DNA of 64,000 nt from Liolophura sinensis. Taxonomy: Eukaryota > Mollusca > Polyplacophora > Chitonida > Chitonidae. The stretch is from the NCBI RefSeq assembly GCF_032854445.1, contig NC_088301.1, forward strand, positions 53,493,187-53,557,186, in the 5' to 3' direction. Shown one piece after another: positions 7,715 to 64,000 of this stretch. Each line of letters starts with the position of its first letter. Within the stretch, counting starts at the first letter, position 1. The notes under the pieces were generated by a model. It was not told where the DNA came from. It saw nothing but the letters and a program-made list of their open reading frames with translations, and ran no database searches. The translations under genes were made by a program, and so were the position numbers.

Positions 7715-7975
7715 CTATTTATGAATTATTTGATTGGTGTTTTACGTCGTACTCATGAATATTTCACTTATACGACGGCGGCCAGCATTTTGGTGGGAGG
7801 AACCGGGCAGAGCCACGGGGAATCCCACGACCATCCACAGGTTGTGGCAGACCTTCTCACGTACAGCTGGAGAGGAGGCCAGCATGAGCGACCGCACGGG
7901 TGGGAATCTCCTGGGTGCTTGCGCCGCGCTGGCGTGCTCATACCCTCGGCCACGGAGGCTCCCGATATATGTTTT
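7715..7975 (-). mobile_element. SINE family A copy, near full length
   Basis: On + the copy begins with TTATTTGATTGGTGTTTTAC (reverse of the 3' tail). It continues through the core GAATATTTCACTTATACGAC, GGCGGCCAGCATT and GGTGGGAGGAACCGGGCAGA, and reaches a tRNA-like head near 7900-7965 ending GCCACGGAGGCTCC. It is about 250 bases long and one of the three most complete family A copies here. Confidence 0.85.
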
Positions 7976-25332: not shown

Positions 25333-28300
25333 CTGAAAGGAAACAGAACAATGAAGTAGTGTCACATGCTATGTTAACCAACCATAAGTACATTATTACA
25401 TATAAGGTGGGAGGACTGAGGTATTTTGAGTCATCCTGTCTGCATGTTATGTACATTATTAATTGAACACCTCCTTACATCTATATATGAAGGAAGTCAC
25501 AAGTCATTAAGATCAATACGCTCAGAGTAATTTATGGAGAAACATCACCATGTCTGACCAATTTTCTTTTAAGTACCTCAGGCTGAGAAGTTTTCAGCCT
25601 CCCCTCATACACATTTATGTATATATTGCAACTTAACATTTTTCCTTCCCTGCGATTATTACATGGAATAAAATTTGTGTAAATATTTTTAATTTTAAAC
25701 CACAAATAAGAGCTTGAAAATAATAAACTATATATCCAAAAAGTCCTGGACACTTCATTGTCAAAATCAGTCAGCAAAATGTTCCACATACATATACTTC
25801 AGCCATTATTCTGGTGGTATGTAACATTGTCTTTCTCATCTATTTATTTATCTGATTGGAGCTGTACACCACATGGTGAATATTTCACTTGTACAACCAT
25901 GGTCAGCATTATGGTGGGAGGAAACCAAGCAGAGCCAACGTACGACCGAACACTGTTTTGTTCTCACCACATGAACAGTAGAGTTGAGTGAGTGAGTGCT
26001 TGGGGTTTAACGTCATACTCAACAATTTTTCAGTCATATGACGACGAAGGAATCTTTAGGGTGCATGTACGTGTAATGTGCCTCCTTGTAGCAGGACGGA
26101 TTTCCACCGCTCTTTTATTTAGTGCCGCTTCACTGAGACGACTTACCGAAGGCAAGTAAGCCGCCCCACCCGAGCCATTATACTGATACGGGTCAACCAG
26201 TCGTTGCACTATCCCCTCCATGCTGAACGCCAAGCAAGGAAGTTACAACTTCCTCTTTTAAAGTCTTAGGTGTGACTCGATCAAGGATTGATTCTGGATC
26301 TACCGGTCCCGAAGCGGAAGAAATTTCCCATGAAGTTTGTAACTTACACAGCTGATCAAAGGAGAGTGTACGTTGTACATTAAGGGTGTCCTTCATCATG
26401 AGATCTCTGAGTGCCCAAAGAGCTGTTACTACACTGTCGTGATAACCTGCACCCTGCCCCAGCCATTGGGTTGGTAACTGGGTAGTGCTCTTAGGCTGGG
26501 TGTTCTCCTGAGTGGCTGTGAGTGAACGCTCAAAGTCTCCAACAGTGCGGCTCTCTGAATTCAAACTCTCAATGTACCTACAATCAACAGGAATGTAAGT
26601 ATTCAGCAACTTATGTCATCAAATAACTCAAAGCTTCATCTGAAAGTACTGATTAACAAGTGCTCGAGTACTAAAAGTTTGCAACAAATTATGAAACTGC
26701 TTCAGAATCAACAGCATTAAATATGCAATATTCACCAATGTAATGGTGTAGTCTAAAAACTACAGATAAATGCCAATTTCCGTCAACATGTACATTGCTG
26801 AATTCAAGTAGACTTCAGTCATTTGAAACAAACTGGTATAATATAGGTGCACAAAAGTGAGAAAATCCATGGGAAATCAGTTCAGCTCTGATCTCACATT
26901 GCCAAAAAAAAAAATTTCCAATTCATATGCAATTTGAATTTATTTTCCCCATATAACGAAACCAGTGTAAACTATAGGTAAATGGGTCGATTTTGGTACT
27001 TAGTATTCACAGACATACCTGATGTATGCTTCGGAATGCAGGAGTCTTTGGGTCCTTGGAGGAACACTGACAAACATAGGAGACGGGGGTCGAGGTGGCG
27101 CAGGTGGAGGTAGATGCTGACCTGTTAATATCAGAACTTATTATATGAACAGATAAATGCATAAGTTGTTGTACTGAGATAAAGGGGTGAGATACATTAC
27201 CAAAACTACACATATATTTCACTGAATTAATGGCAAACAATTAATACAAGGTGCGGCTATAACAGTAATATAGCTTTGTACAATATATCTGAACTAACAG
27301 TGCATAATATCTCTTAATATAAATATGATCTCATGTTCGAGAATGCCAATCAGATTTAACTTATGGAAACAACATCTGCTTCTCCACCAATAGGGAAATT
27401 TCACACCAAAACCTCTGCAATAAATTGGTCGCTTGGTAAAAAGTTTGTTAGTTTATTAGTGAGGGTATATAATTGGTATATAATGTTAATTCCCAAATAA
27501 TAAAAGACCATACAATACTGCTTTTAAGCAATGTACATATCCAAGTGGAAATTCATAAGATCTAATCAAAGAACTAGTTATTTATACATGTGTACAGGTG
27601 TTTCAGGAGAAAATGCCTGAAGTAAACCACACTGACGAAGTACGTGTACCTGAGAAACTTTGCAGCAGAAAGCCACAGTTGTACCAGTCAGAGCTGGGGT
27701 TGGGCATGTAAACTCATTGGTCAAAGGCCAATATGAGGCAGCAGAAGAGTGACATATAGTTTAAGGGCAAGGTAACCATTATGTAGATTTTAAGAAGAAA
27801 ACTTAATCATCTTTTAACAGTACACATATTTCACTGAAAAACAAAGATGTCCATCTTAGATCAAGATTGCACTAGACTGTAAAGAATGGTAAACACACTC
27901 AGGTTCTTGCAATATTGGTAAAACTCTGGAAAATGATTCATGACACACAAAAATAAGTCTTTTACATTTGTGGATTATTTGGCAAGGGTGGGGGGGGGGG
28001 GTTAATAAAATGTATACTTAATGATGAATACTTGAAATGGTTTAATAGTGAACACAGTAATACAGAAGAAAACCAAACACAAAGCAACAGTGAGATGAAA
28101 ATTTGCTGCGTTTTACCTCATTCTAAAGAAATCAATAAGGAAACACAGCAAATTGTACAAAACACCTTGTCCAATCAAAAGAATGAGTTGGAATTTAAAC
28201 CATGCAGTATTAAAGTATAATGTACACAGCTTGAATATATATTAGGCAACAGTTTTAATGAAGTAATAATTCTTCATTGCCTTTGGAGATCAACCATGTT

Positions 28301-40300: not shown

Positions 40301-43300
40301 AAATTTAGTATGACAGACATACTTGTAACAACAGACTACAGTAGGTACCGTTAATATATCTTCAATGAAGACGGGTTGACGGAGGAGACTGTTCTGTAAG
40401 CAGAGTCAGTGTTTAATGGCTAATATTATTGTTACACATGCATTTGAAATACCTTGTAGATAAGCGAGTCTGGTTCATTGTATTTGCAGGCATTGTCAAA
40501 CATCTGGACAAAATCTGCCACCATGTCCTCTACTGTTTCATACTGGTTACCAGACATGCGCTGCTGCACACGCTGCATATCAACAGGCTTCTTAATCACT
40601 TCATAATAATCTGGATAATCCTGCAGGAATCAGACAAGAGATTAAACACTATGTGTAAAATGAATACTTTTTAAGCAAGGAGATCTGCTAATTTGATTAC
40701 TAAAACGAAAATAGAACATGCACTACTTCATGTAATTGTAGTGTTCGACAAATCACATTTTTTGAATTTGGTAGATAAATGAGACTTTATTTTCATTTCC
40801 AAGTGTCGATTTCATATCAGCGTTGCTTCAAGAGTGAACACTACAAGGACAAATGTCAAAAAATCGTGGTTAAAACACAATTTGCTTAAATATTATCAAA
40901 AATTTCATGTGGCACTCCACTCATTTCTTTCTTTTTAATTAAGGCAAAACCAAAGGAAATTTGATTCACCAGCAAAGACTTACACTCTTAAGTGGCAGTT
41001 TGATGAATGGTGTGGACAAAAGTCTTCCTCTTGAGTCAGTGTAATCCTTTATTGTGTTGTAGAGTTCTGTCAGTTTCTGACACAGAGGGGAGACTGGTTT
41101 CACTTTTGGTTTGCTGAAGAAAAAAAAAACATGAATATTTGTAAACTGCACAAATACAAGTGAAATATGAGCCAAATTATTTATTTATTTGATTGGTGTT
41201 TTACACCGTACTCAAGAATATTTCACTTATGCGACAGCGGCCAGCATTATGGTGAAAGAAAAACGGGCAGAGCCCAGGGGGGACCCACGACAATCCCCAG
41301 GTTGCTGGAAGGCCTTCCCACTTACGAACGGAGAGGACGACAGCATGACCTGGACTTGAACTCACAGAGTATGAGCCAATTATAATGTTCTCTGTTCATG
41401 GTCACAAAGTACAAAAAAAAAAAACACCAAGAAGAAATTAATGTCCACAATAACTTTGAAAGCAAAACCTCAAAATGAACTTCCCTAATTTGACAAAATA
41501 AATATGGTATAAATTAATGACTGAACCATGGAAGTGGACATTTTCAAGACAACATAGATTTTCTTTCTACCTCTTGGAGGCAGACCTCTTTGGGGAATCA
41601 AATGCTGGATTCATGGCCTTCCACTTGTTTTTGATGACTTTCTCCAGTGTCTCCGCATCCTGATAGACCAGTGAGTCTTCTTCATTGTAATGCCGGGCAT
41701 TGTTAAACAACAGTTCAAAGTCAGAAAGCACTTGTTGCTCTGTGGTGTACTGAAAAAATAATAAAATAAAATTTAGTTCGAAGCACTTGAACTGAAAATT
41801 AAAGACAAAATCATTCCATTGTTTGTTGGAGTTGTTTTTACAACTTTATTACAGTTATTTATATATCTACAAACAGGTTCAACAAAGTGGCTGAGGAAAA
41901 GAAAATGGGGAAAGAAAAAAAAAAAAAAAAGACCCTAGATCAACTCTATGCAGCTTCTTTTGTTTTGGTTTATAAAATGACCTTCCTAACAGAGCCCTTG
42001 ACCCGATGACAAAAACTAAGGCTGATGAAACCATAATTATCCCCTTTTCTCAGCTTAAAACTCTCACATAAATTAAACTTTGATAAGGTGACGCCAATTT
42101 CATTTTGTGTTTTACAGAGCAGCCAACACTAAAAAAAAATCCAAAAATGGAATAAAAATAAAATTCTTGGGTTTTTTTTTTATGAAATTGCTGTTTTTCA
42201 AGGCTTTCCATTCTCGTAAAGTATGTCTTCAGGAGGAAAAATTGCTGGGATACTCCAAATTTTCCACAAATTTGATGACTTTTAAGTTGTATTGTTATAA
42301 CTCCCTCTGACATTGAAAAAGTACTGCCCACAAAACAACAGTTTGAATTGGTGGTGTGGCCTAACCACAGTAAATGTGACAGTACATGTTAAATTCTGAG
42401 AGTCAAAATTAACTAATGTGGTTGAGTAAAGATATTAATGAAATACCACAAATACTGCAACCATGTGGGAAGCTGTACAAGCCAGTTCAGAAAACAGTTT
42501 AATAGACAAAGATGGCTTTAGCAGATCAGAGCACACAGCAAACAGTATTTTGCACAAAAACAGCAAAACAATGAAACAAACAACAACAAACAAATAACCA
42601 GCAGAACCACATAAATAACTAGGAGCTTCATCCTTAATTCACGATGCCTTTAAAAATGAAGCAAAGTGTATACCAGTTTGGAGATTAAACGCAGGGTACC
42701 TGTATTAAAGATGTCCTACATCTGAAAGGTAAAAAGAATTTAGTCACAGATGAACAGCTGCTTTGACTGTGGACCTCAAACCCTTCCACATTACCTTGTC
42801 ATTTTTTATCCTCTGATCAATCATGTTCATGTCGATGGGCTGGGAAATGACTTGGTAATAGTCTGGGTAGTCTTTCTTCAGAGGTAACATCATAAAGATG
42901 TCACGTAGAGGGCGCCCATTACTGTCCTGCAAATGAGGTCAGTCAAAGGTTATCACTCGTTACTATCATTACGACACCTGGGGATTGTATCCTGACTTTT
43001 ACTAAATTTACCATTTTATATATATTACACACATGTTCTATACTAAGACCCTAAAATAATTTCTTACATTTATAAAGTTAATTTAAGGCTGATGTAAACA
43101 TTAAATACAAATTATACATCAAAGTAACTGGCCTTATACTTCAAATGCAATTCACAAGAACACAGAAAATAAATTTAATAATGTATAAAAAACAATTGTG
43201 GTAAGCAGATTGTGCATTGAAAACAACAAAATTTTAGGTAATGCTAAGTAAGTAATGCTACATGTAAGTATAGGAATAAACAACACAGCAAGTCTTTAAA

Positions 43301-46300: not shown

Positions 46301-49300
46301 GTTCTTAAATGTATGGAATATCTGCAGAAATGTTTACCTGTTAGTTTATTTCCACGAGTCTAACTGATAACTGTCATGCTGAAACACACTATCCTTCTCA
46401 AGCAGGGAACAGCCACACATACATGTAGTTGTGTGCGAAACAAAAACTTAGGAAGTAAAAAATAAATCAGAAACTGCTTTACAACAGGATAACAAAAAAA
46501 AACAGTAGTAGAGGATAAATGCAGGTAAACATTTATCACACTTCATACATGTAGTAGCTCTACAGCGAGCCACTAAATTCAATACAACCTTGGGCAAGTA
46601 AAGTACACTACCTAAATCAGGCTTGTCTGAACAGATGAAATGTACCAAGTTTGCTGGTTAGGGTACAAAGTCCAAGCTCCTATAACCATGACAACTAGAC
46701 TGCTCCCATACATTACAGAACACTCTAACAATACAATAATACTGTTTCATTCCAAGAGGTGCATTTTAAAGATATCCCATCTAAAGCTAAACTTTAAAAC
46801 TGAAAAACAGAGATCAAAATTGCATGCTGGCTATAAACCAACCAACCAACCAAAAAAAAAAATCTGAATTTAATGGTTTGAGGATTGTGCTCTTATTCAA
46901 TTCAAATCTGATTTCATGAATATGAAGAACTATTGGGAAGATATGCTGTACTATATGTTTGTATGTTTAAACCACACTGCTGTTAAGCACACACTGGTTT
47001 ATTTTGAGGCGCAGTTCTGACAGAAATGCTACAGATCAGGCAGGATAAACATTTACTCACCACCAAGGGACAGTCATAGATGGGAGGTAATTCCTCCAAA
47101 GGGAAGTCCTAGAATGACGGCATATAGGAATTTGGAAGGGAAAATTAAATATTCAACATAACTCTGCGGCTTAACAAATTATATATCATGATGAATAAAA
47201 ATTAAGAAAATAAAACTTTACTGTGCACAAGAAAACATAATACTCAAAAATAAATTTTGAAAAAAAAAAAAATAATAAATCCATTAGAGTCTCTTTTTTT
47301 CTGTGTTTTCATACTAGCGAATTAAGTATCATTTATCAAACATGTCAAAATATTGTAAAATAATAATGGAATAAAACGTTTTACAACACAACAGATTACA
47401 ACACACTTTGGTTAACAACATAATGGTGTAAATTTGGAAACTCAAAATGATCTCAGGCAAGTGGTTTAACCAAAAATTTTGCACCAAAAACATGAATTAC
47501 ATTAATTACTGGGATCCATGAGTTGTGACAGACATCTTGTCTTTACCTACATAAGGGAATTAGGTAATGGCAAATGAAAAGAGCCTGAGACTATCCACAA
47601 AGCACAGGTGGTAGTATTTAAATACACAGGTGACCACAGCAATGTAGTACACCGACACAATATGGCAAACCAACATGAACCACAACATGCTGTTAAACCC
47701 ATCATACAACATCAAATCACACATTTCTACTGATCTGCANNNNNNNNNNNNNNNNNNNNNNNNNNNNNNNNNNNNNNNNNNNNNNNNNNNNNNNNNNNNN
47801 NNNNNNNNNNNNNNNNNNNNNNNNNNNNNNNNNNNNNNNNNNNNNNNNNNNNNNNNNNNNNNNNNNNNNNNNNNNNNNNNNNNNNNNNNNNNNNNNNNNN
47901 NNNNNNNNNNNNNNNNNNNNNNNNNNNNNNNNNNNNNNNTTACACAGAATGCTTGAACTAAAAATCATCCAGAACAGTTTATGTTGCAAGGTATAGAATG
48001 AATACTGCTAAACCTCTCTGAATAGATTACTGACAGTTACATTCAACTGGAAACCCATCAAATCAAAGATGAAGTGCTATTAACATATCCAGACAATGGT
48101 TCTGTGCAACTTTAACTCAGGATTAGGTTCACTTCACAAATCTTCCCTCAGATGTTCTACAATTTCACACCCACACATGTATTCAGGAAATGTTATCTGG
48201 TGTCAACACAAATGTGTCGTAACATTACTGAATTAGTAAAACAGCATTCCAATAGCTTGTCAAAAGCCAAATAATACTCGGAAAAAATCTGTGGTCAACA
48301 AATGTTACCCATAAAATTATGTGTTTGTTGAACTGAAAATCATAATGCTTTACATCAATTACGCTCTCCAGTTATCTGCAAAACATTTTCCAATACAAAG
48401 TTCCATTTTGAAAGTTTTGTTGTAAGAGCACTGTTACTATGTGTGTACCAAAAAACATTTATGTAGCAATTACAACCGCACGACTGTACCACAAATATTC
48501 CCTCTAATCTAATTCTTCAACAATATCTGCATGCATCATTTTAGAATGATTAAATTGATTTTTTAATATTTGAAGATTTGAATTAGACCAACTTTGGCAA
48601 TTTATGTTCAAAATTATGTAATGAACATCCTGATACATACAGATAACACAAAAAATCATTACTATAATATAAAAAAACTCATACATTAGTGCCCACTGAA
48701 AACAGATATACATTATGTAGTTACTCTGCATAGAAAAAAAATAAAAATAAAATACATGTATATTTTTTCAATTGTTAAAAATGCAAAGGCACACTCAACA
48801 GATAGCACACCACAATAGTAAAAGATGGTTAGCGATTCGAAGCCAACACGTGATAGTGACTTATAAAAATCAAAACAATTTACACGTAGTTCTTTCACAT
48901 AATTACGCTTCATGTACATGTATAAGTACAGTACAACACACACATAACTTCACAGCAGCAACAGTTTCATAAATATCAATCTTGAACCCAAAAAGAACAT
49001 AGCGGGTTGCAGATTCCCTTTATTCTATGAGTGTCATGCTATAAATTATGTTGTCAAGATGACATTACAGTATTCAATCAAACACAAAATCAGAAGACAT
49101 TAAATGGAAAAACCGAAGTGCATTAGACATACACACACAGCAAAATAATTGAAGATGTTACATACCTTGACATCAAACTTTTCTAATTCCTTCTTCTTTT
49201 CACGCATGGCCTTCTGGAGGATATGTGCATCCTATAAAGAGCAAAACAGCCTTTACAAATTATCGATACAGAAAAATCTCCTTAATAGCTTACTGCTTAA

Positions 49301-55300: not shown

Positions 55301-55851
55301 CATTCTAAGAGGGTGTTGGTATACCTAGGTTCTGCAATAATGTATATGCAATAATAAATGATGTGTGAAATGACAAAAGAAAGAATAAATAACAATTATT
55401 TCATGTAGAAGTGTAAATATGTAAATACAGTCTTATGGTGAGTAAGACTTTCAGCAAATATTCAAAGAAATGTTAATAACATTATTTGACACACAAAATG
55501 TCACATCATAAAACCTGCTCAGTATCCAAAGATCATAATTACAGGTTTTGTTAGAGAAGTGTTAGCAAAAAATTTAGGACAGTCTAGCAGAGCTACCAGT
55601 TAGAAATGTGTACAGTTAATCCAAACATGCACCAGGTAACACAAACAAATGATTTTTTTATCCTTTCAAGTTTGTAGTTCAATGTTTATATTGCTTGGTA
55701 CATGCCAAGTATCAAAGTTCAACACTACCTTACATACCGGATCATACTGTGCTGATTTCTTCCTTTTCTTGACCATGGGAACACTGTTTGATGTATCCGA
55801 GTCTTCCAGACGACCATCAGGCAAAGAATTACGTTTACGTTTGGAAGGCAT
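25331..55851 (-). CDS. PBRM1: Polybromo-1 (BAF180), complete coding gene
   Basis: This is the chromatin-targeting subunit of the PBAF SWI/SNF remodeller and acts in the nucleus. I joined 39 coding exons (listed by domain below) plus a terminal exon that supplies the last two bases of the stop. All junctions have GT-AG ends and matching phases, and the sum is 5,247 nt or 1,748 residues, against about 1,690 in human. Order: basic N-terminus, bromodomains 1-6, BAH1, BAH2, HMG box, a Gly-Tyr-Pro tract, a Pro-rich tract and a C-terminal block ending DTLN plus ten residues, exactly as far as human. The start is the ATG at 55,849-55,851, where MPSKRKR parallels human MGSKRRR. The first in-frame codon further up this exon that could be read as a start is GTG, so it was not used. 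A 200-N gap lies in one intron and might hide a phase-0 exon. GNL3 lies head to head with it. Confidence 0.95.
25838..25945 (-). mobile_element. SINE family A copy in the last PBRM1 neighbourhood
   Basis: TATTTATTTATCTGATTGGA, GTGAATATTTCACTTGTACA, GGTCAGCATTATGGTGGGAG and GAAACCAAGCAGAGCC. It lies within the last PBRM1 intron (25,333-26,347), reversed, next to a family C element. Confidence 0.8.
25987..26312 (-). mobile_element. SINE family C copy, long, in the last PBRM1 intron
   Basis: On + it starts GTGAGTGAGTGCTTGGGGTT, then TAACGTCATACTCAACAATT, TTTCAGTCATATGACGACGA, a middle with GCCATTATACTGATACGGGT and CCCTCCATGCTGAACGCCAA, and ends GGTCCCGAAGCGGA. The pol III A-box half of the head seen at 3850 is cut off. 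The boundary is only about 36 bases from the PBRM1 splice donor at 26,347. Confidence 0.85.
26348..27121 (-). CDS. PBRM1: PBRM1 C-terminal conserved exons
   Basis: Exons 27,019-27,121 and 26,348-26,577 (residues 1638-1748). PRTQRLLHSEAYIR, YIESLNSES, LPTQWL, VVTALWALRDLMMKDTLN match the human C-terminus step by step. The coding part ends with CTG T at 26,348 before a strong GTAAGT donor. The terminal exon begins GA, so T/GA makes the stop. Ten residues follow DTLN, exactly as in human. Confidence 0.9.
27690..27740. repeat. SINE remnant in PBRM1 intron
   Basis: GTAAACTCATTGGTCAAAGG resembles GTGAACTCATTAGTCAATTA at about 39,578. Both carry a degenerate B-box-like run next to it. Short and decayed. 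Confidence 0.35.
28407..28739 (-). CDS. PBRM1: PBRM1 proline-rich exon
   Basis: Residues 1527-1637, rich in Pro, Gly, Met, Thr and Ser (for example GMSTPTMAMVPPLTFPYGG). Phase 1 on both sides, so this exon or the GYP exon could be skipped without frame loss. Position and composition match the human Pro-rich region. Confidence 0.88.
29472..29663 (-). CDS. PBRM1: PBRM1 Gly-Tyr-Pro repeat exon
   Basis: Residues 1463-1526. A low-complexity tract of GYPP, GYQSPGYPG, GYPPPPGYPPHG and QQGYPQYPG units, with almost no charge. Phase 1 on both sides. Human PBRM1 has a Pro/Met/Gly-rich stretch here but not this regular GYP pattern. It resembles phase-separating, prion-like tracts; that role is inference only. 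Confidence 0.88.
29664..30352 (-). other. PBRM1 intron between GYP and HMG exons
   Basis: No repeat or RNA gene recognised. The intron starts at the G/GTATTT or G/GTGGGT donor of the HMG exon. Confidence 0.6.
30353..30824 (-). CDS. PBRM1: PBRM1 HMG-box exons
   Basis: Exons 30,702-30,824 and 30,392-30,587 (residues 1357-1462). SGYIVFAGEIRKT, SSFGDISRIVGTKWR and YEEKAKRLAEEQAAKQQ match the human HMG box, a DNA/nucleosome-binding module. The second exon continues into a Ser/Pro-rich tail (SPGANSRPATP). Two phase-1 donors are possible: G/GTGGGT after 30,392 and G/GTATTT after 30,353. The second adds 13 residues (GYSEGKKKSQQ core). Confidence 0.93.
31126..31281 (-). CDS. PBRM1: PBRM1 acidic linker exon before the HMG box
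   Basis: Residues 1305-1356. EPSPLLAK is shared with human; the rest is Glu/Pro/Thr-rich. The acceptor is CAG/CAG, so Gln1305 may be optional. Phase 0 on both sides. Confidence 0.88.
31518..35940 (-). CDS. PBRM1: PBRM1 BAH domain 2 exons
   Basis: Exons 35,782-35,940, 35,426-35,513, 34,948-35,023, 34,556-34,728, 33,760-33,848 and 31,518-31,589 (residues 1086-1304). The first exon is the BAH1-BAH2 linker (PVRVASVFAEKGK). YVRSSEDRPLIARIDKIW, CGPWFVRPVEVEHAPTR, KREVFLSS, IMGKCSVQHIKEYLS and DVYICESKYLEA mark BAH2. The donor at 33,759 is weak (AAG/GTTTTA), and a second GT nine bases further is out of phase. The last exon's acceptor is a tandem NAGNAG. Confidence 0.92.
31590..33759 (-). other. PBRM1 intron within BAH2, 2.2 kb
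   Basis: No coding exon recognised. A perfect 10-base inverted repeat with a 5-base loop lies at 31,929-31,953. The rest is unremarkable AT-rich sequence. Confidence 0.6.
33885..33925. repeat. AT/AC microsatellite
   Basis: A run of TATATATATATATATA followed by ACACACACATATACAT in a PBRM1 intron. Confidence 0.85.
34255..34450 (-). mobile_element. Old SINE family C copy in PBRM1 intron
   Basis: CATTATACTGACACCATG, ACCAAGCAAGGCAGCTATAA, TGGTATGATCCGACCCGGGT and TTGATCCCAGG keep the order of the family C body at 26,170-26,300. Strongly diverged. Confidence 0.5.
36152..37830 (-). CDS. PBRM1: PBRM1 BAH domain 1 exons
   Basis: Exons 37,748-37,830, 37,171-37,309, 36,588-36,689 and 36,152-36,226 (residues 953-1085). 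Landmarks are FHVGDFVYVEP, ILCIERLYKD, NWFYRPNETYHLATRKFLEK, EVFKSDFF, LGKCYVMFVKDYF and VYVSEFRYN. All are BAH signatures shared with human BAH1. The domain mediates protein contacts in PBAF (known of the family). Confidence 0.95.
38239..40165 (-). CDS. PBRM1: PBRM1 bromodomain 6 exons and charged helix
   Basis: Exons 40,025-40,165, 39,680-39,765, 39,262-39,304, 39,057-39,143 and 38,239-38,466 (residues 758-952). DEEGRCYSDSFAEIP and RYRRVDRFQEDMF match human BD6 closely. An EEEEEEL stretch is inserted in the ZA loop. The anchoring Asn position reads Ser (RARRLSRTDSQ), so BD6 is atypical. KNGEILLTPALSYTEKHLQ and a Lys/Glu-rich helix follow. Confidence 0.93.
39535..39630. repeat. SINE remnant in PBRM1 intron
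   Basis: CAGGATTTGAGCCTGTGAAC is a reversed B-box-like sequence, next to GGGCCTAACAGTCGCAG. Too decayed to assign to a family. Confidence 0.35.
40453..41113 (-). CDS. PBRM1: PBRM1 bromodomain 5 exons
   Basis: Exons 40,984-41,113 and 40,453-40,620 (residues 658-757). LCQKLTELYNTIKDYTD is helix Z, DYPDYYEVIKKPVDMQRVQ is the ZA loop, and DNACKYNEPDSLIYK carries the anchoring Asn. This is the most conserved bromodomain in the protein by eye. Confidence 0.95.
41178..41376 (-). mobile_element. SINE family A copy in PBRM1 intron
   Basis: TTATTTATTTGATTGGTGTT, TTACACCGTACTCAAGAATA, TTTCACTTATGCGACAGCGG, CCAGCATTATGGTGAAAG, GGACCCACGACAATCC and GGACTTGAACTCACAG (reversed B box). It nearly reaches the head. 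The intron is between the BD4 and BD5 exons. Confidence 0.85.
41571..43546 (-). CDS. PBRM1: PBRM1 bromodomain 4 exons
   Basis: Exons 43,364-43,546, 42,795-42,926 and 41,571-41,749 (residues 494-658). A Ser- and Lys-rich linker precedes KKRMIMLYKAVFDYT (helix Z). DYPDYYQVISQPIDMNMID is the ZA loop, and NNARHYNEEDSLVYQ holds the anchoring Asn. The third exon ends in a basic linker (SPKRSASK). Confidence 0.94.
43547..47060 (-). other. PBRM1 intron between BD4 and the 16-codon exon, 3.5 kb
   Basis: No exon recognised. It contains two diverged copies of TCTGTAACTTGTCATGGTGA (44,749 and 44,905), each followed by a CTGTACCAA/TGTGCCAAG-TTTC stretch; this looks like an old dispersed repeat. ORFs of up to 110 codons here show no family resemblance. 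Confidence 0.6.
47061..47108 (-). CDS. PBRM1: PBRM1 16-codon exon in the BD3-BD4 linker
   Basis: A phase-0, 48-nt exon with CTAG acceptor and GTG/GTGAGT donor. It encodes an acidic, Pro-rich peptide (DFPLEELPPIYDCPLV). Human PBRM1 has no obvious counterpart. Its size, symmetric phase and position between two very long introns make it a likely cassette exon. Confidence 0.75.
47740..47939. other. Assembly gap of 200 N
   Basis: Exactly 200 N in the PBRM1 intron between the 16-codon exon and BD3. The round number suggests a gap of unknown true size. Open frames drawn across it are artefacts. A missing phase-0 exon cannot be excluded. Confidence 1.
49166..51172 (-). CDS. PBRM1: PBRM1 bromodomain 3 exons with preceding acidic linker
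   Basis: Exons 50,915-51,172, 50,495-50,564, 49,644-49,742 and 49,166-49,231 (residues 313-477). The first exon starts with GQRLSAVVAALKYASEEE, a BD2-BD3 linker motif shared with human (GGRLSAITMALQYGS), and runs into helix Z (LFTFVKNHK). SDYYEEIKNPMS is the ZA loop and ENAKQYNQDGSRLYK holds the anchoring Asn. The last exon ends the domain in a Lys/Glu-rich helix. Confidence 0.92.
49448..49520 (-). mobile_element. SINE tail fragment in PBRM1 intron
   Basis: TCATTTATTTCATTGTTGTT, TAATGTCACACTCCAGAATT and TTTTTACACAACAACGCCAG align with the reversed SINE tail and core, with many changes. Confidence 0.5.
51173..52927 (-). other. PBRM1 intron between BD2 linker and BD3 exons
   Basis: 1.75 kb. 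Apart from the SINE fragment at 51,655 I recognise nothing. No exon needed: the flanking phases (2 and 2) agree. Confidence 0.6.
51655..51736 (+). mobile_element. SINE family A tail fragment in PBRM1 intron
   Basis: CCCCATAATTCTGGGTGCCA, TAAGTGAAATATTCATGAGT, ACAGTGTAGAACACCAATCA and AACAAATAAATAAAT. Confidence 0.8.
52928..53019 (-). CDS. PBRM1: PBRM1 end of bromodomain 2 and linker
   Basis: Residues 283-313. DAVSLKKVISTKK is the end of helix C, followed by a basic linker. Phase 2 at the donor (AG/GTCAGT). Confidence 0.9.
53180..53763 (-). CDS. PBRM1: PBRM1 bromodomain 2 exons
   Basis: Exons 53,620-53,763 and 53,180-53,347 (residues 179-282). LEELFSAVMTAK opens helix Z, NYPEYYKVIKDPIDLKMIA is the ZA loop, and KNAKSFNEPGSQIYK holds the anchoring Asn. 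The splice falls between GRT and NYPEYY. The domain is completed by the next exon (DAVSLKK). Confidence 0.93.
53860..54060. repeat. Scattered TGGTTTACTT repeats in PBRM1 intron
   Basis: ATGGTTTACTT or close variants (CTGGTTTACTT, TTGGTTTACTT, GTGGTTTACTT, ATAGTTTACTT) occur about eight times in 200 bases, some preceded by ACAGGTG. Spacing is irregular. Confidence 0.7.
54237..55205 (-). CDS. PBRM1: PBRM1 bromodomain 1 exons
   Basis: Exons 55,108-55,205, 54,534-54,681 and 54,237-54,410 (residues 39-178). They carry QELYDTIRNHK (helix Z), GRLLCETFIRVPKR (ZA start), ADYYDVVTTPIDL (ZA loop) and ITNAKAYYK (helix B). The acetyl-lysine-anchoring Asn position has Tyr (AYYK), as in human BD1, so this module is atypical. 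The third exon ends in an acidic Ser-rich linker (MEAESADEAQ). Confidence 0.93.
55738..55851 (-). CDS. PBRM1: PBRM1 exon 1 coding: basic N-terminal tail
   Basis: Residues 1-38, phase 0 end. Two basic clusters, SKRKR and KKRKK, are likely nuclear localisation signals. Acidic and Ser/Thr residues lie between them (EDSDTSNS). The exon begins with untranslated GGTGGAGGAAATC after a CTAG acceptor. The donor is CCG/GTATGT. Confidence 0.9.
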
Positions 55852-56244
55852 GATTTCCTCCACCCTAGAATGATAACGTAATGATTATAATTGCAATTCC
55901 TTAACACCATCTACTTTATACAAAAGTCATTTTAAGATACACAAACTGGTGCTATGGAAAGGCAGTTGGAAGAGGCAGTAGCCTCATGTTGGGAGCACCT
56001 TGCATGAACATGGTTATATCGAACTATGTGCTTCCACTAAGCTAATCCACTAAGTCCTTTCCATATAAAACCTTTGGTTGCACAAGAGGAGTTGTAGTGA
56101 CAGCCCCTACAGTAGGCAACTTAGCAAAGTTTCTCAAGAAAATAATTACTTCAATATAAAAACAACAGTTTACAGAAGCTACAGAAAGTGACAATAGCTT
56201 TCTATACCTTATAACTGAAATCTAAATGCTAGTAAGATGATTAC

Positions 56245-56287
56245 CCTTTATCAGACATCAAACAGCAATTTTTTTCACCATGGAATT
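56245..56287 (-). other. Possible PBRM1 5' UTR exon with a 7-codon uORF
   Basis: A TTTTCAG acceptor and a G/GTAATC donor bound 43 bases that lead into the 5' UTR of coding exon 1. It holds ATG GTG AAA and so on up to TGA (56,281 down to 56,258), a 7-codon upstream ORF. Assignment rests on splice consensus only. Confidence 0.4.
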
Positions 56288-57013
56288 CTGAAAACAAAAG
56301 AATAAATCATTTTTAAAAAAAGAGTGAATCACAAGATACATTTTAGTCCAGTTAGAAGCCTCACTGATTGTATTCATTACACCATAAAAACGTGGTTAGT
56401 AGCATGAATTCAGAATACTATCTGTTCAATGCAAAATAACATTAGTCCCAAACAAAATCAAGTAGTTGTCTATCTTCTCTTGTGATTAATCAGTGGTGCA
56501 GGTTTCTCTACTGTTGAACGTGAAATTATACACACAGTTGGCGAGCCAAAAACAAAACTGCCAACCATGGTTTAAGGGCGAATTCTGAACACCTTAAAAT
56601 CAATATCAGTCCCATTTTTGGAGCAAAACCCCATGAATTATTAAAACAGTCGTAAGGCGAAGGATTAGGACTTGTCCAATTTTCGTTACTTATGTTTGCC
56701 ATGCTGAAGACATGCTCAATTACAAAAAAAAAAAAACGGATCTTCTTCTACTACCCAAAACCATGCACAAATGTCAAAAGTTAAACAATATGAATCACGA
56801 TACAGGTGTAAATACAATTTGATGTTTTAGTTTCCTCAGCACATACTCCATAAATAATCCTTCCGGCGTTGTTGTTGTGCTGGTGAAGAAACAAAGGCCA
56901 CAGGAATGCAACACTGTAGCTACCTACACAGAATGCACACGTTGAGCTAAATAATCAGATACTATCAAATATACAACAAAAGCTTATAAACTTCATTAGA
57001 TAAAATGATGGTA

Positions 57014-57357
57014 CCTACTGCAGTGGATAAACAAAAAGCACGCCGAGTTTGAAAACAAATTTATGTCTGCTCTCCATTCGAGATCACGCGACTTTCTACG
57101 TGATCCTACGGTACCGAGACAAGGCTCGTGTCTAGGTGGGCGCCATCAGGGCATCAGGGCAGTGATTTCCTTCAAAATTTTAGAATAATTGTTGATAGAG
57201 GAGTATCAGATATTTAATAAGTATTTTCAGATTCCGTGAGTCTCTATCAATGGTTTACAAGTAAAGCACTGCCTGCATCTAAATTAATCAAAAACACCCA
57301 AAATAAAAACTGAACTATTTACTCACGTATTAGCTAATGAATATTAAGTTATTCAAT
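57014..57357 (-). promoter_or_regulatory. Probable PBRM1 first exon and promoter side
   Basis: GC-richer than its surroundings. On the - strand a donor-like CTGCAGTAG/GTACC (57,014 region) could close a leader exon running up to about 57,145. CGAGATCACGCG at 57,079-57,090 recurs on the GNL3 side at 57,917-57,928. No TATA seen on this strand. Confidence 0.4.
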
Positions 57358-57642
57358 ATGGGGGCGCCCACGAAAGACGGCATGAAACGTGATTTGGAAG
57401 AAGTGATCGCGTATGACAAGGCAAGCGGTGGCTTTTGTGCAGAGTTAAAGGCAAAGCAGGTCAACGCTCTTCGTACAGCATACAAGCAACAAGATGTCAT
57501 TGCAATCTAATCGACTGAATATGGTAACAGTCTTGTATATCAGCTTATGCCCTAAGTCATCCAGCGTCGAGAACACAGTGAAGAACGCACGATAACTATT
57601 CTTGTATCTCCGCTGAATTCTGTTATGCAAAATAATTTGTGG
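57358..57642 (+). pseudogene. Decayed RecQ-like DNA helicase fragment
   Basis: A single reading frame starting at ATG 57,358 gives 50 codons and stops at TAA 57,508. The frame then continues with helicase-like sense past two stops. ELKAKQVNALRTAYKQQDV matches the motif 0 region of RecQ-type helicases. The next segment, STEYGNSLVYQLMP after the stop, sits where the Walker A (LPTGxGKS) belongs, with Lys changed to Asn. ILVSPLNSVM at about 57,598-57,627 is the motif Ia segment. Stops at 57,508 and 57,553 and the lost P-loop Lys mean no active enzyme. It is only the first part of a helicase domain; I see no motif II (DEAH). It lies in the intergenic space between PBRM1 and GNL3. Likely a fragment of a transposed or retrocopied gene. 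Confidence 0.7.
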
Positions 57643-58017
57643 TAATTGTGTAAATATATCTGAATTGCTATGGTTCAACATGAGCGCGGGCAGAGATGAC
57701 AATAATACCCACGAACGCCTGTAAATATCGCACTGGTTAACAGTTCCGTAAGTTCGCCATCACGTGCTGTTGTTTATATAAGGGGAAAGTAGTCATCTCA
57801 GATCAGGTGACGTAATGCCCGAGCGTCGCTTTCGACGTCACTGTTGTAAAAAGTATGGCGATCTCAACGGAGGCAGTGTAGGTACATCTCTATTTTAGAA
57901 TGTTCTGCTTTCAAAACGAGATCACGCGTGCTGGTACGAGAATCTATCATCAGAAAGCTACCAGCCATTGCTCGTACGTTTACCAGAATATATCCACGTG
58001 CGCCAAATGAAAACATC
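57643..58017 (+). promoter_or_regulatory. GNL3 promoter and 5' UTR
   Basis: TATATAAGG at 57,775-57,783 is TATA-like. CRE-like TGACGTAA lies at 57,808-57,815 and GACGTCA at 57,834-57,840. CACGTG E-boxes lie at 57,761-57,766 and 57,995-58,000, the second only 17 bases before the GNL3 ATG. A 8-codon uORF lies at 57,855-57,881, and a 5-codon one (ATG 58,007) overlaps the start. Vertebrate GNL3 is a MYC target (known), so the E-boxes are plausible, but this is inference. Confidence 0.5.
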
Positions 58018-60875
58018 ATGGTGAAACAATTTTTCAGTAAGTTGTGTGTTGAAATGTTTATATGCCATGCAGTGTTAGCACAAGGAATCATATCACAATA
58101 AGTTCTAGCGTCAAGCTGCCAATGATGACCACTTTTTAAAGGAAAGTGGTGTTTTATGACAACCACCAGAAAGTTGGATGTGAAACATATTAGTGAATTA
58201 TATGGGGTCCAGGTTTCGTATAAAATATTTATAAGGCATATTTTCAGTGCATCAGATTTAGGTAATATCTTAATTATAGTCAGGCATGAAAAATAGTAGT
58301 CACTTGCCTCGTTTGACAGCGTATAAAGTGTTATGCAATGACACTCTTTTCTATTGTACAAGCATTTTTATATGAATCTCAAATAGATTTCCTCACTAGA
58401 AGTGTATATTTCGTCCTACCACCTTGTAGGCAGAGGGGTAGCCTGAGATTGCATGTGAGTTATATTTTGGCAGAGTGCACTTCCTTTAAAAACTGATGAA
58501 ATTGCTGTTTAGTTTGTCATTGCCGATTTATCCAAAGCACAACATCAATCAGTCACGATCAAGGCCACATGAAACATTCTTGCAAATGGCATAACACACC
58601 AATCAGTCAGTCAGAAGAAAAATTTTAAATTTTTCACTTCAACTAAAGAGGTAAATATTGATAGTTGTGTTTCAGAGAAAATTCATAAATAGTCATGTTC
58701 AAATGTACACAAGATATGCTTCATTTTTTTTTTATTTTTTAACTTTTAAAACAAGCGCACACTTTTACTTCTAAAACATTACTGATGCTGTGGTCATTTC
58801 CCTTACAGAAAAGAAAAGTAAAAGACAGTCAACAAGACAGAGATGCAAGATAGAGAAAAAGGTAAAATCATGTGGTTTTTGTTTGAAGCAATAAGTTTTT
58901 AAGACTTTGTCTTTCAGGCAGTGGAATTCCCACAATTTTGCTGCTTTTGATGCTGTTTATGTTTGTTTGTAAAAAATAAGATATCAAGGGATTACTTTTG
59001 ACGTTGAAGTCTTGACAGTATCTGCCAGGTTGAATTGACTGGTTAGTTCCTCTTCTCTCTTCCTGGTCAGCATTTGTCTGATTCTTGAAATCACTGTGAA
59101 GGTATGTTCTGGCTTTAACTTACCATTTTATCACGATTCAGGTGCGAGAGCACAACAGGAAAGTAAAGAAAGAGGATAAAAAGAAAGGACGTAAAAGTAA
59201 GTATCATGTCAGTGAAATTATACCCTCCCAATTCCATAAGTTTTTACATTTGTGTTGAGTTCAAAAGTGAAGTAAAGCCTCATTATAAAATTATGGAAAG
59301 TGAAAGCACTGTGTGATTTTGATGATCTGTAAGCTTGTGTCAGTTAATTTATATCTTACTTAAAGGATACATGAACAGGAGCTATAGAAACAAAGTGTTG
59401 ACAAGGTGACATGTACACAGATATTGCGTGTCTTTTGCCCAACACTGCCCCCTTCCCCCACGTTCATCTGCTCCCCATAACTGCGCCCCTATTCGGCCAG
59501 ACCCGTTCAATCTGTCCCCCTCAGAGTTTAAACAGGGATCACCGTTGACATTGCCGCTGCAAGCTACTTAATTTTCGGACTGACCGCTGGGGCCTGAAGA
59601 AAACTGTACTTTGAAGCCATATTGACCCTCCAAAGTGAAAGTGAAAAAATTAGTTTTGTAGTGTTATTGTATGTTATTACACATGGTAATCTGCACATTA
59701 AGAAATAAAACCAAAGCGTTTCATGTATCCTTAAAGAATTACTTCAGTGAAGGAGTTTAGAGTTTGAACTCTTTTTGTCGTTAAAGCAGTCCTGCTGCAT
59801 CTTGTGACTTGTGAAAAAGGCAACATTAATTGACATTAGTTAACTGATCACTTAATATCTCATCATGTGAAACACCATGTTACAGTAAATGTGATCAGTA
59901 ATAGTTGCCTAACATTTTTGACAGATCAAATGGTACAGTAAGACTATTTTTTAACTTTATTCATGAAAGTGTTTGAACTTGACACTCCCCAGTTATGGGG
60001 GGTGATGACAACAGCACACACCAAATAAACCCGACCACTGATTCACCTTGTACAATCCTAGCAACTTTTTGGCACAAAGCAACAGCCAACCAAGCTCCAA
60101 GATTAATTGTCTACATACTCTGAGACAGTCTCTGATTGCCAGGACTTGTTTAATTCATTGTGGAATGTCCTGTTTACAAGTAGATGTAGATACATGGAAT
60201 ATGGTCATCGTATTGAGATTGTGCAGAAATTGATTTAATCTGGTCCCACTTACATAAAGTTTTGTGAATAAGTAAGTTGTAATTTTTCTTTGTAATCATT
60301 TTATAGGAGTATTACCCAGGTTGATAAAAAAATACAGTGTAAAGTTGGTGCCTTTGCATCATTATCCTGGTACATGTGTATTTTCTCTTTGTGATGTTCT
60401 TTTTCATTTTTTTATGTAAACATATGTTGTGAAATCAATGTCTTAAAAATGCTTTTAACATGCTTTTATTTTTAACAAGGAAAGTCAAAAGACCCTGGTG
60501 TTCCAAACAGTTTACCATTTAAGGAATCTATTCTGAAGGAAGCTGAGGATAGAAAGAAACGAGTAAGTAACTCACCAGCAGGTTTCCTGGGCCATGGGTA
60601 ACTTGTAACCTATCCAGTTTAATCTAGCCTCACATTTACCCTCAGTATCAGCCATATAATCATATGTTGGTGTATTACTGAAATACACACCAATCTCAAA
60701 CGATAGACAAGTTTTCTTAAAGAGAATGTTTGTTTTTACTTCACAGATTCAGGAAGAACAAGAACGAGCAAAAGCAAGACGAAAAAAACAGAGAGAGAAG
60801 ATAATGGACAAAAAGAGGAACTTGGCAAGCCTGACACAAGATGCACAGAGGCGTGGCGCAGCTTTTGATAGGAAG
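58018..60875 (+). CDS. GNL3: GNL3 N-terminal basic domain, exons 1-5
   Basis: Residues 1-113. [35 protein letters not shown] and [20 protein letters not shown] match the GN3L_Grn1 nucleolar domain, which carries nucleolar localisation signals. A Lys/Arg/Glu/Gln-rich coiled-coil-like helix follows ([17 protein letters not shown]). Introns of 772, 280, 1,283 and 184 bases separate the exons. The longest (59,197-60,479) holds no recognisable element. Confidence 0.9.
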
Positions 60876-63800
60876 GTAACCTTTTTAATAAAATGTTGCA
60901 TTATATTAGCTGCCTCAGTTTCCTTAAGCTTGCACCAACCAACTGGTATCTGACCACTCAGGTTACAGGTTCAATTCCTGCTGTCACTGGTTTTGCTGTG
61001 GCTGAGTCAAGAGATTTGTCAGATAACCATAGGGGCCAATTAATCTTTTTCCACCTCTCTTGTTAAATTAACAAATTTTATTTCTGTCTCATCTTTTAAA
61101 AAATAAAAGTGAATTGTTTTGCCTTTGTATGTATCTGTATAAGGTGAGAGCCAGTATTGAGTAATTAACTTTAAAGAATAAATAAAACTCATATGATTTG
61201 GCCTAACATATAAAAGTATAACACAAGGTTATCAGTTTTCTTCTTTGGGCGTAAAAATGGCTTTAAACCACAGTTTTCGTAAGACCCCAGTGGTCAGTTC
61301 GAAAAATAAGTAGCCTGCTGTGGTGATGTCAACAGTGATAACTCAGATCAACTTTGTTGGGTGTAGAACCCAAATTGGGGGTGCTTGGCTGGTTCTGCAT
61401 TCCCAATATGTTCATCAATGATCTCATTTCCAAATGATTTCTAACCATTGATGGAATATATGCATAAAATATATAGATTTAAGAAATACGAAGTATGCCT
61501 CAAAAATGAAAAAAAAAATATCATTTTTTTGGCAAATCTTTCTCCATGTTCCTTGAAAACCATGATCTTCGTTTAATAGTGTACCTTTTCATGTATCCTG
61601 TAATGCATAACTGAAAACGAATACTGGGTCTCAAGTTACATGTAGGTCAAGCCAGACAACTTGACAATGATAGTGCTGCGTTGCTAACCAGTCAATATGA
61701 AGGGTATATGAAGTTCTGACCAACATTTCATGTTATACTATAACTAGGTAAGTTATCATGTCTGATGCCTTTGGAGTTGCACTCCAGTGATCTCCAGTGT
61801 TTAAATAAAAGAAATATTCAGTGATACTCTTTCTGTGTATCTCAGACATCTATGAAGAAAGATGCCGGATCACAACATATTGATGGAAAAGCTGTAGAAG
61901 GGTCTCTCAAAGCATTTTATAAGGAATTTAAAAAGGTAGGCTTTTCCATAGCAGTGATTTGGGTTTGAATTTTATTTAAAATGTTCTTTTTAATAGAATC
62001 CAAATCAAATTGGTATCTTATTTACAAAGAAAGATATTGTAATTCATCTGATAGAGCTTTTTTTCTGCCAACTTTAAAATCTGAATCAAAAATAGAATAG
62101 ACAGAATAGATGTTTAGTGAATAACACATAACTGTTTCACAGTATTTCACTATGATTGTTTTGTGTGTTTTTAAACATCCTTAATCCATATCATGATTAG
62201 TAGAGGTGACCCTAAATGCTCTTTTGCACATCATATAGCCTCTCTGCAGTGTGACTAAACTTACCTGATTCTTATTGCAGCTTCATGTTATACCATGATT
62301 TTGTTTGGTGTTTACTTTGCAAGGTTGTTGACTCGGGTGATGTCATTCTGGAAGTTCTGGATGCCAGGGACCCTCAGGGAAGCAGATGCCAGGAAGTAGA
62401 AGAAGCAGTGTTCAATGCTGGCACTAATAAAAAACTGGTTCTTGTACTCAATAAAATAGGTAAGAAATATTCACATAAATTGAATGACAGTGTGTACTTC
62501 TGGCTATGCCAGACTCTGTTGCACTGTGGCTAAGTAATTATAAATGTCACATTAAATAAATTTAAGCTCATTTTTCTGGTATCATTTACTTCATTACAGC
62601 ATTCAGTTTGAAAGGCCTACATGAAATTGATGCACTTTACACGAAAAAAATTGTGTGCTTTAGTCATAGTTTAGGAATACCCATAATTAATTTATTTGGA
62701 GATAAGTAAATTGTAATGTAGTTATTTACTTGTGCAAATGTATTGTTCATTTAAATACTAGCGATTTCACAACCTACATGTACCCGTGAATAAGGTATGG
62801 AGTACATGTATGGTTATAGTTTTTACATCTTGTGTCATATGTGTCAGTAATTAATAAGTTTGTGTAAAAAAAAAATTTAAAACAAGTTTTTCATTAAAAT
62901 CAGATGTGTAATTTAATGTGCCCACAGGTAACTGACAGTTTAATTTAAAATCAGAACTTCTATTGTTTTCCTTTTGTCTGTCCATATTAAGATTTGGTTC
63001 CAAGAGAGAATGTTGAGGCTTGGTTGAAGTATTTGCGAAATGAGTGCCCAACTGTAGCCTTTAAGGCTTGTACCCAGACACAGAATGAAAACTTGGTAAG
63101 ACTACTACTGTTATTTACATATTATTGACAAGAACATTGTACATGTATACCTTAAACAAGAAAAACCAACCAAATAAATACATGTCTAAATAAATTATGT
63201 AAATACATAAAATTTGTCTTTATTTAAGTTATTTTTTACAACCTATTTATTTGAAGTCGTTCTCACATTAGGTCATTACCCGTGGTACTTGTAGCTTTTT
63301 CCTTTTTGGCTAATGAGGCCACCATGGCTGTTGGGGTAAGCATGGCACGATGACCCAGGAGCCTCTTACCAATTAGGTCGCTGTGAGTTCAAGCTGAGTT
63401 CATAGTGGCTTACTCTGGGAAGTCTGCCACTAACCTGCAGATGGTCGTCAGTTTCCTCCAGGCTGTGCTGGGTTTCCTTCGACCATAATGCTGGCCGCTG
63501 TCATATAAGTGAAATGTTCTTGAAATGGGGTGAAACACCAATCAAATGAATAAATAAATAATGACCTAGAATGCCAATTTTGATTGACGACTGCATGCCA
63601 ATGTCTGTCTCATACAACGCATAGATACATTGGGGACTTGGAAGGCAAAGCAATGTTCCATGCTGGGTTGTTTGAGAACCACGTAGGTGGATAGCACATT
63701 TTCCTGTATCTGACTTCAAAAATAGATAAACAGATGGCTTTGGTCAAGGGATGAGAATTATGGAGCTGATTTTATAATAACATTGCTATAAACACCAAGT

Positions 63801-63988
63801 GGATGCCTCCCTGTGTAAAAGTGACTGGCACTGACTGTTTCAGTCTCGCACTAAGGTGCCCCTGGATCTTGCCAGTGACGACCTGAGAAAGTCCAGCAGA
63901 TGTCTTGGGGCAGACATGTTGATGAAGCTGCTGGGCAATTACTGCAGAAATGCTGACATTAAAACCACAATACGTGTTGGTGTTGTAG
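58018..63988 (+). CDS. GNL3: Nucleostemin (GNL3), first nine exons, runs off window
   Basis: A nucleolar, circularly permuted GTPase of the YlqF/YawG group needed for ribosome biogenesis and cell proliferation. Exons: 58,018-58,036, 58,809-58,861, 59,142-59,196, 60,480-60,562, 60,747-60,875, 61,846-61,935, 62,324-62,459, 62,992-63,095 and 63,844-63,988 (271 residues). All have GT-AG ends and matching phases. The N-terminus has the same length as human to the KIxKK motif (residue 24). G4 (NKID, 186-189) comes before the G1 motif, the hallmark of circular permutation. The last exon ends at VGVVG, just before FPNVGKSS, which must be on the next exon. The gene is head to head with PBRM1. The 19-nt first exon was chosen by phase and length, and is the least certain part. 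Confidence 0.93.
60876..61845 (+). other. GNL3 intron 5, with SINE remnant
   Basis: CAGGTTACAGGTTCAATTCC (about 60,959-60,978) is B-box-like and may be a SINE remnant up to about 61,070. The rest of the 970-base intron shows nothing. Confidence 0.4.
61846..63988 (+). CDS. GNL3: GNL3 permuted GTPase domain, exons 6-9
   Basis: Residues 114-271. [19 protein letters not shown] leads into LDARDP (156-160), then LVLVLNKID (G4), then TVAFKACTQ (G5 region), then [20 protein letters not shown] and VGVVG. The intermediate exon junction splits the Asp of NKID (G/AT). In the DxxLVPR and LGNYCR stretches it resembles human GNL3L more than GNL3, while its N-terminus resembles GNL3. Confidence 0.93.
63315..63570 (+). 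mobile_element. SINE family A copy, near full length, in GNL3 intron 8
   Basis: The tRNA-like head starts TGGCTGTTGGGGTAAGCATG (degenerate A box) and has a B-box-like GTGAGTTCAAGCTGAG 60 bases on. The body follows (GTTTCCTCCAGGCTGTGCTG), then GGCCGCTGTCATATAAGTGA, AATGTTCTTGAAATGGGGTG and an ACACCAATCAAATGAATAAATAAATAA tail in order. About 250 bases. Confidence 0.85.
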
Positions 63989-64000
63989 GTAAGAGCTCTG

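Follow-up and report, generated by a model that had tools for sequence, protein, structure and literature searches.

A head-to-head PBRM1-GNL3 gene pair in a chiton genome, with a probable common open region over both 5' ends

In the chiton Liolophura sinensis, the genes for polybromo-1 (PBRM1) and the nucleostemin-family GTPase GNL3 are adjacent, protein-coding and on opposite strands, with their 5' ends facing each other. Our overall reading, to which we assign a probability of roughly 60%, is that they form an ancient divergent pair, in which separate core promoters would lie within one open region. PBRM1 is a chromatin remodeller and GNL3 a ribosome-assembly GTPase, and both are used in growing cells. 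The stretch analysed here, referred to as the window, comprises 64,000 nucleotides, within which the start codons of PBRM1 (minus strand, 55,851) and GNL3 (plus strand, 58,018) lie at positions 2,167 bp apart, separated by 2,166 uninterrupted bases.

Identity of the two genes

The coding region of PBRM1 occupies 26,193-55,851 on the minus strand, counted from the ATG to an approximate 3' limit set by the open reading frame that carries the C-terminal match (26,193-26,615). The minus-strand model joins seven spliced exons from 55,851 down to 52,928 and encodes 312 amino acids; the part from residue 3 to 303 can be aligned to residues 3-292 of the solved polybromo-1 chain 7y8r_U (E 5.8e-130), covering bromodomains 1-2. 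Exon pieces from further along the gene, picked out by eye in the lists of open reading frames, match the same chain in order at residues 552-824 and 874-946 (E 8.7e-173), corresponding to bromodomains 4-6; the first 60 residues of this query, which hold the pieces of bromodomain 3, are in no reported alignment. Bromodomain 3 itself gives a Pfam match on one open reading frame, below the cut-off (E 0.0019), and the HMG box a weak one (E 0.0057). For the C-terminus, the piece at 26.2-26.6 kb gives a match to residues 1519-1594 of 1597 (E 6.2e-10). Tandem bromodomains in polybromo order, together with the polybromo C-terminus, thus identify the gene as a PBRM1 orthologue. A search with a bromodomain exon among prokaryote genome contigs gave 119 pattern matches, none of them confirmed.

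GNL3 runs on the plus strand from 58,018 to 64,000, where it leaves the window at its 3' side. Seven exons (58,018-62,459) encode 188 residues, to which an eighth exon, beginning at 62,992, contributes a further 35, giving 223 amino acids in total. Residues 5-220 align with residues 5-212 of the GNL3 chain 8fkp_NB (E 1.5e-53), and the alignment of both the N-terminal basic region and the G4 motif, which is split across the exons at 62,459 and 62,992, identifies the gene as a GNL3 orthologue. In the circularly permuted GTPase domain expected of GNL3, G4 precedes G1; here the apparent start of G1 was placed by eye at about 63.98 kb, and the remaining GTPase domain lies beyond the window. Among viral contigs, 43 pattern matches to the GNL3 model were found and none was confirmed.

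The N-termini of both models match solved chains, so that the two start codons can be regarded as sound. The first coding exons lie at 55,738-55,851 (PBRM1) and 58,018-58,036 (GNL3), each placed by exon model and N-terminal alignment. The initial annotation had described the genes as head to head with about 2.2 kb between their start codons; gene identities, orientation and distance are all borne out, and the span of 55,738-58,036 that it gave takes in the first coding exon of each gene and the interval between them. The window also holds a dispersed SINE-like repeat of a kind known from molluscs, and a globin whose best match among solved structures is Aplysia myoglobin; both fit a molluscan genome.

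A CpG-normal segment over the interval

The two gene bodies are depleted of CpG, with observed/expected ratios of 0.34 over 26,200-55,851 (PBRM1) and 0.30 over 58,060-64,000 (GNL3). Between them lies a CpG-normal segment (56,648-58,002; ratio 1.07, 59 CpG), which spans the GNL3-proximal 1.35 kb of the interval; no stronger segment of this kind occurs in 40 kb. Its score of 39.2 compares with a maximum of 25.5 among 500 block shuffles. Because of the CpG loss in their bodies, both genes are probably body-methylated, and they may be broadly expressed. Passages on oyster describe methylation that climbs sharply past the start site and promoters that are generally without it (PMC4378273), and CpG-poor genes have, in part of another paper, been associated with housekeeping functions (PMC2996979). 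The single segment supports, at the level of base composition, one unmethylated region that would hold both promoters. CpG-normal sequence also prevails over positions 1-23,000 (ratio 0.83), so that the segment could be merely untranscribed DNA.

Motifs of kinds found in promoters occur in the interval at the level of consensus only: two CACGTG E-boxes (57,761-57,766 and 57,995-58,000), two CRE-like sites, among them TGACGTAA at 57,808-57,815 on the plus strand, and three copies of the YY1-like core ATGGCG (57,141-57,146 and 57,755-57,760 on the minus strand, 57,855-57,860 on the plus strand). These matches are few and partly a consequence of CpG content, and for this reason they are not counted as evidence for a shared promoter. 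A looser TATA pattern is not enriched in the interval (3 of the 120 matches in the window), and neither GC-box nor NRF1 consensus sites are found there.

A helicase relic and a duplicated segment

Within the CpG-normal segment, 285 bp on the plus strand (57,358-57,642) resemble the first part of a RecQ-family helicase domain. The match to NCBIfam TIGR00614 (E 1.1e-6, 27.7 bits, profile positions 11-67 of 470) is far under the cut-off of 219.8, that to Pfam DEAD (E 0.0091) is likewise below its cut-off, two stops lie in frame and the Walker A lysine is missing by eye. An intact RecQ helicase domain with Walker A is thus not found at 57,358-57,642, and by its sequence the fragment is a relic and no working member of the family. 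The relic is flanked by two copies of a 43-bp direct repeat (57,066-57,108 and 57,904-57,946, plus strand), 838 bp apart and identical at 31 of 43 positions. For inverted repeats joining the two flanks, the score is at chance level, being attained in 235 of 300 shuffles, and a literature search for the repeat sequence found no match. Neither the relic nor the repeat was mentioned in the initial annotation.

These features bear on its suggestion of a shared, constrained promoter. The part of that suggestion which concerns a common open region is backed by the single CpG-normal segment, but a shared, constrained promoter is more than the findings bear out. The relic and the 43-bp duplication make a compact core promoter under sequence constraint less likely in the interval, except if transcription of PBRM1 begins between the relic and GNL3. 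Conservation of gene order does not by itself show constraint.

Where transcription may start

The distance between start codons is not that between promoters, since PBRM1 may well carry an untranslated first exon. The sequence directly upstream of its ATG (55,852-56,849) is as CpG-poor as the gene body (ratio 0.36), and 21 minus-strand ATGs lie within 55,865-56,850, features more in keeping with an intron than with a leader; on the same grounds an unspliced PBRM1 leader was considered less likely and set aside. A weak candidate for a 5'-UTR intron spans 55,865-56,923 on the minus strand, between a donor with exon end at 56,924 (5.8, the highest minus-strand donor score in the interval) and an acceptor with an exon from 55,864 (4.0). 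A score of 4.0 is reached by 891 of the 7,166 AG sites scanned, and leave-one-out scores of known acceptors range from -1.7 to 7.1. Acceptors further upstream score higher, at 55,910 (4.9) and at 56,106 and 56,056 (4.1 each).

Upstream of GNL3, TATATAAG (57,775-57,782, plus strand; four occurrences in the whole window on both strands) is a candidate, if ambiguous, TATA box, which would place the initiation of GNL3 at about 57,805. As a plus-strand splice acceptor, with an exon from 57,783, this position scores 9.4, and it may instead be the end of a GNL3 leader intron; another possible leader intron is given by a donor at 57,852 (7.3) and an acceptor at 57,987 (5.7). Splice and TATA signals are thus ambiguous, and the start sites that they suggest are candidates.

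Interpretation and alternatives

The mechanism that we favour combines these elements as follows. PBRM1 and the single invertebrate GNL3 form a genuine divergent pair of orthologous genes, and their order would most likely stem from the common bilaterian ancestor. Both 5' ends would lie inside one CpG-rich, unmethylated and probably nucleosome-depleted region of about 1.35 kb (56.65-58.0 kb). GNL3 would probably start near 57.8 kb, unless a spliced leader is present, and PBRM1 within the island at about 57.0-57.8 kb, its untranslated exon then being spliced to the ATG exon. The distance between start sites would then probably be a few hundred bp, each gene having its own core promoter in a common open chromatin domain in place of one tight core, and the helicase relic and small duplication would have arrived between or alongside them. 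A more specific history strikes us as rather unlikely: an ancestral bidirectional promoter of a bilaterian-age pair, pulled apart in place by helicase-derived sequence and by a local duplication, so that one copy of a promoter segment now lies at either end, with the genes still linked and each holding its own core promoter.

Persistence of the ancestral order by chance in slowly rearranging genomes, with no functional coupling, is a reading that we hold possible, if less than even. It overlaps with the favoured mechanism, which does not need constraint, and it is consistent with the insertion and duplication tolerated in the interval; in passages of a comparative paper, co-regulation fails to explain the retention of divergent pairs (PMC3403606). 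Against it, a lone CpG-normal segment over both 5' ends would presumably make breaks costly to both genes. We consider it rather unlikely that the pair shares a tight bidirectional core promoter, kept under sequence constraint and used by both genes, with PBRM1 starting at about 57.7-57.8 kb near GNL3 and the relic lying in its leader or first intron. The minus-strand ATGGCG at 57,755-57,760 does adjoin the E-box and TATA-like motifs that precede GNL3, the 100-bp bins richest in CpG are those of 57,700-57,999 (6, 8 and 7), and a minus-strand GTGAGT donor-like site with exon end at 57,327 scores 4.0. However, the splice scan of the interval found no strong donor for such a leader, and the relic and duplication mark part of the interval as unconstrained.

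The two remaining explanations concern the pair itself. An independent meeting of PBRM1 and GNL3 in the chiton lineage and in the vertebrates is one that we regard as highly improbable: by our rough estimate, it is very unlikely that two specific genes among some 20,000 should twice come to lie head to head by chance. Slightly less probable still is an erroneous join of the two genes: one 200-N gap in the window points to a scaffolded assembly, but this sole run of N (47,740-47,939) lies inside PBRM1, the 16 kb around the junction of the pair are free of gaps, and two intact gene starts would give a CpG profile such as is seen. A blastn search of the interval against the window (E up to 0.01) found no second copy.

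An ancestral origin would make the pair one more deep regulatory linkage, between a chromatin remodeller and a ribosome-assembly GTPase. The relic makes the interval a natural experiment on the degree of disruption that a divergent promoter can withstand. The linkage, if true, would also be positional evidence that vertebrate nucleostemin, and not GNL3L, sits at the ancestral GNL3 locus, and conserved position beside PBRM1 would be independent support on GNL3 ancestry, with the caveat that after whole-genome duplication both copies are positional heirs until their neighbours are compared. Passages of a study of the family describe invertebrate GNL3 as present in one copy, orthologous to the vertebrate genes nucleostemin and GNL3L (PMC9449814); the terms "synteny" and "adjacent" do not occur in its main text.

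Comparison with known systems

With human GNL3, the chiton protein shares an alignable N-terminal basic region and G4 (NKxD) motif, although the window covers the gene only to about its midpoint. We take the human pair at 3p21.1 to be in head-to-head order, with start sites presumably within about 100 bp; the proposed age of the pair depends on this order. Passages in the literature place human PBRM1 and GNL3 at one 3p21 locus, and those that name both genes were found to hold no description of them as divergent or promoter-sharing. No other human neighbour gene was recognised in the window (open reading frames by eye, Pfam on ten pieces). SNORD69 is listed at the human locus in one such passage, whereas here no snoRNA exceeds its gathering score; the three RNA-family matches in the window are all far below theirs, and no tRNA genes are present. 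The pair is not known to be retained in fly or worm, where the GNL3 gene of the worm is K01C8.9.

In passages on human bidirectional pairs, the defining distance between start sites is below 1,000 bp (PMC12672016; neither PBRM1 nor GNL3 is named in the main text), and part of the comparative paper sets the same limit of 1 kb for divergent pairs (PMC3403606). The CpG segment and the splice scan suggest a PBRM1 start that is closer to GNL3 than the 2,167 bp between start codons, without fixing its position. Unlike animal bidirectional promoters in general, the chiton interval places the start codons 2.2 kb apart, contains a helicase relic and a duplicated segment and lacks the GC-box consensus, which passages on sponge report as the commonest promoter motif (PMC4773876). 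In amphioxus, 372 putatively ancestral bidirectional promoters are described, and bidirectional promoters are generally enriched in housekeeping genes, according to part of that study (PMC6292497). The TATA-, YY1- and E-box-like sites of the chiton interval are of kinds named in passages of the amphioxus and sponge papers (PMC6292497; PMC4773876), and with the bidirectional promoters of human, amphioxus and sponge the chiton pair has in common the adjacent divergent genes and the CpG-normal region between them.

A divergent PBRM1–GNL3 pair

The initial annotation had placed PBRM1 and GNL3 head to head, and this arrangement, together with its coordinates, is confirmed by the N-terminal alignments of both genes. 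The seven-exon model of PBRM1 on the minus strand (start codon at 55,851) aligns from its residue 3 with residue 3 of the 1,597-residue polybromo-1 chain 7y8r_U, and the GNL3 model on the plus strand (start codon at 58,018; seven exons plus the first stretch of exon 8) pairs with the solved GNL3 chain 8fkp_NB from residue 5 onward in both sequences. The start codons lie 2,167 bp apart. Further matches of the GNL3 model were to chains named GTPase grn1 and NUG1. Downstream pieces of PBRM1, picked by eye out of lists of open reading frames, match the polybromo-1 chain in order (residues 552–824, then 874–946), and the final piece, at 26.2–26.6 kb, aligns to its C-terminus; the bromodomain-3 pieces at the front of this downstream query appeared in none of the reported polybromo-1 alignments. 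The sole run of Ns in the window (47,740–47,939) lies within PBRM1.

CpG landscape and start sites

Most CpG is gone from both gene bodies (observed/expected ratio 0.34 in PBRM1 and 0.30 in the in-window part of GNL3), but not from much of the gap between the two start codons. In 2-kb bins the ratio drops sharply near 24 kb, close to the PBRM1 3' end, from 0.75–0.95 to 0.23–0.50, and beyond this point only the bin 56,001–58,000 is normal (0.86). A maximal-segment scan of 24,001–64,000 yielded one dominant CpG-normal segment at 56,648–58,002 (59 CpG, ratio 1.07, score 39.2); the runner-up scored 14.3, and the maximum over 500 shuffles of 100-bp blocks was 25.5. By the rule reported for oyster, in which methylation rises sharply after the start site (PMC4378273), both transcription starts would fall inside this segment. 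Toward PBRM1 the segment stops some 0.8 kb short of the ATG, on its upstream side, and the intervening 55,852–56,849 is as CpG-poor as the PBRM1 body (0.36); since 55,865–56,850 furthermore carries 21 minus-strand ATGs, this stretch appears intron-like.

Splice signals for an untranslated first exon of PBRM1 fit only loosely. The top minus-strand donor within the gap ends an exon at 56,924 (score 5.8), the acceptor preceding the ATG exon scores 4.0, a value equalled or exceeded by 891 of the 7,166 AG sites in the window, and three acceptor sites farther upstream score 4.9, 4.1 and 4.1. For GNL3, the candidate TATA site TATATAAG (57,775–57,782, plus strand), with a CRE-like site directly downstream, would put the start near 57,805. 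The same spot doubles as a splice acceptor (score 9.4), and a leader intron at 57,853–57,986 is a possible alternative; a looser TATA pattern showed no enrichment in the gap (3 of the 120 occurrences in the window). Given these loose PBRM1 and ambiguous GNL3 signals, the start sites are positions that we infer. The likely GNL3 leader (57,815–58,017, plus strand) contains four upstream ATGs with reading frames of 27, 8, 36 and 5 codons, possibly a means of translational control.

A helicase relic and a duplication within the gap

Midway along the gap, at 57,358–57,642 on the plus strand, the translation reads as the opening portion of a helicase domain of the RecQ family, an identity expected from translation by eye prior to the profile and chain searches. 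It matches NCBIfam TIGR00614 (E 1.1e-6, 27.7 bits, far under the whole-protein cut-off of 219.8), its sole Pfam match at E<=1 is DEAD (E 0.0091, under the cut-off), and the three matches to solved chains at E<=1 include KLLA0B09372p as the best (E 0.21) and WRN helicase (E 1). As the frame holds two stop codons and, by eye, lacks the Walker A lysine, we regard this sequence as a relic; no second copy was found elsewhere within the 64-kb window. Its flanks alone (56,850–57,349 and 57,650–58,050) have a CpG ratio of 1.08.

The relic is bracketed by a 43-bp direct repeat, one copy per side and 838 bp apart (57,066–57,108 and 57,904–57,946; 31/43 identical, blastn E 2e-4), whose score no shuffle reached (0 of 300 for the two flanks, 0 of 200 for the CpG-normal segment, 0 of 100 for the gap as a whole). 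The stretch between the two start codons has therefore tolerated both foreign sequence and a duplication.

One open region or one core promoter

We favour, with a probability of roughly 0.6, an old divergent pair in which two core promoters would share one unmethylated and probably open region. The initial annotation had proposed a shared, constrained promoter, which is partly supported: the single CpG-normal segment speaks for promoters sharing a region, while the inserted relic and the duplication count against a compact core under sequence constraint, except if PBRM1 transcription begins between the relic and GNL3. A tight core promoter common to both genes is unlikely. That the pair has been kept neutrally, by mere persistence, is a somewhat stronger contender, though still the lesser prospect beside two promoters in one open region. 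The weights given to these readings exceed one in sum because the rivals partly overlap the favoured one.

Other features of the window

A dispersed SINE-like repeat, which resembles a repeat of mollusc genomes, occurs at 7,700–7,960, 41,178–41,348, 63,422–63,560 and other places, with 11 matching pieces in the window beyond the query copy and none in the PBRM1–GNL3 gap. A globin gene (17,539–17,874, plus strand; Pfam Globin E 2.6e-11), with a likely next exon, by eye, at about 18.2–18.36 kb, best matches the myoglobin chain 1dm1 (E 8.5e-6), followed by 1x46, 2fam and 1mba; 1dm1, 2fam and 1mba are Aplysia myoglobin. With this repeat and these globin matches, attributing the DNA to a probable mollusc is reasonable, though short of proof. 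Unlike PBRM1 and GNL3, it sits in CpG-normal DNA. A tandem array of 15.8 copies of a 68-bp unit occupies 5,616–6,683.

Possible conservation of the pair

The human PBRM1 and GNL3 genes are apparently also head to head; papers on human 3p21 list both at one locus. No relative was found among the viral and prokaryote contigs scanned. The literature points both ways. A human study that set out from 1,399 divergent pairs lists 66 that are conserved in the fly and 50 in the worm; its main text names neither PBRM1 nor GNL3 (PMC12672016). Should the pair turn out to be ancestral, it would gain in interest, since its position would speak to which of the two, nucleostemin or GNL3L, has inherited the place of the invertebrate GNL3 (PMC9449814).
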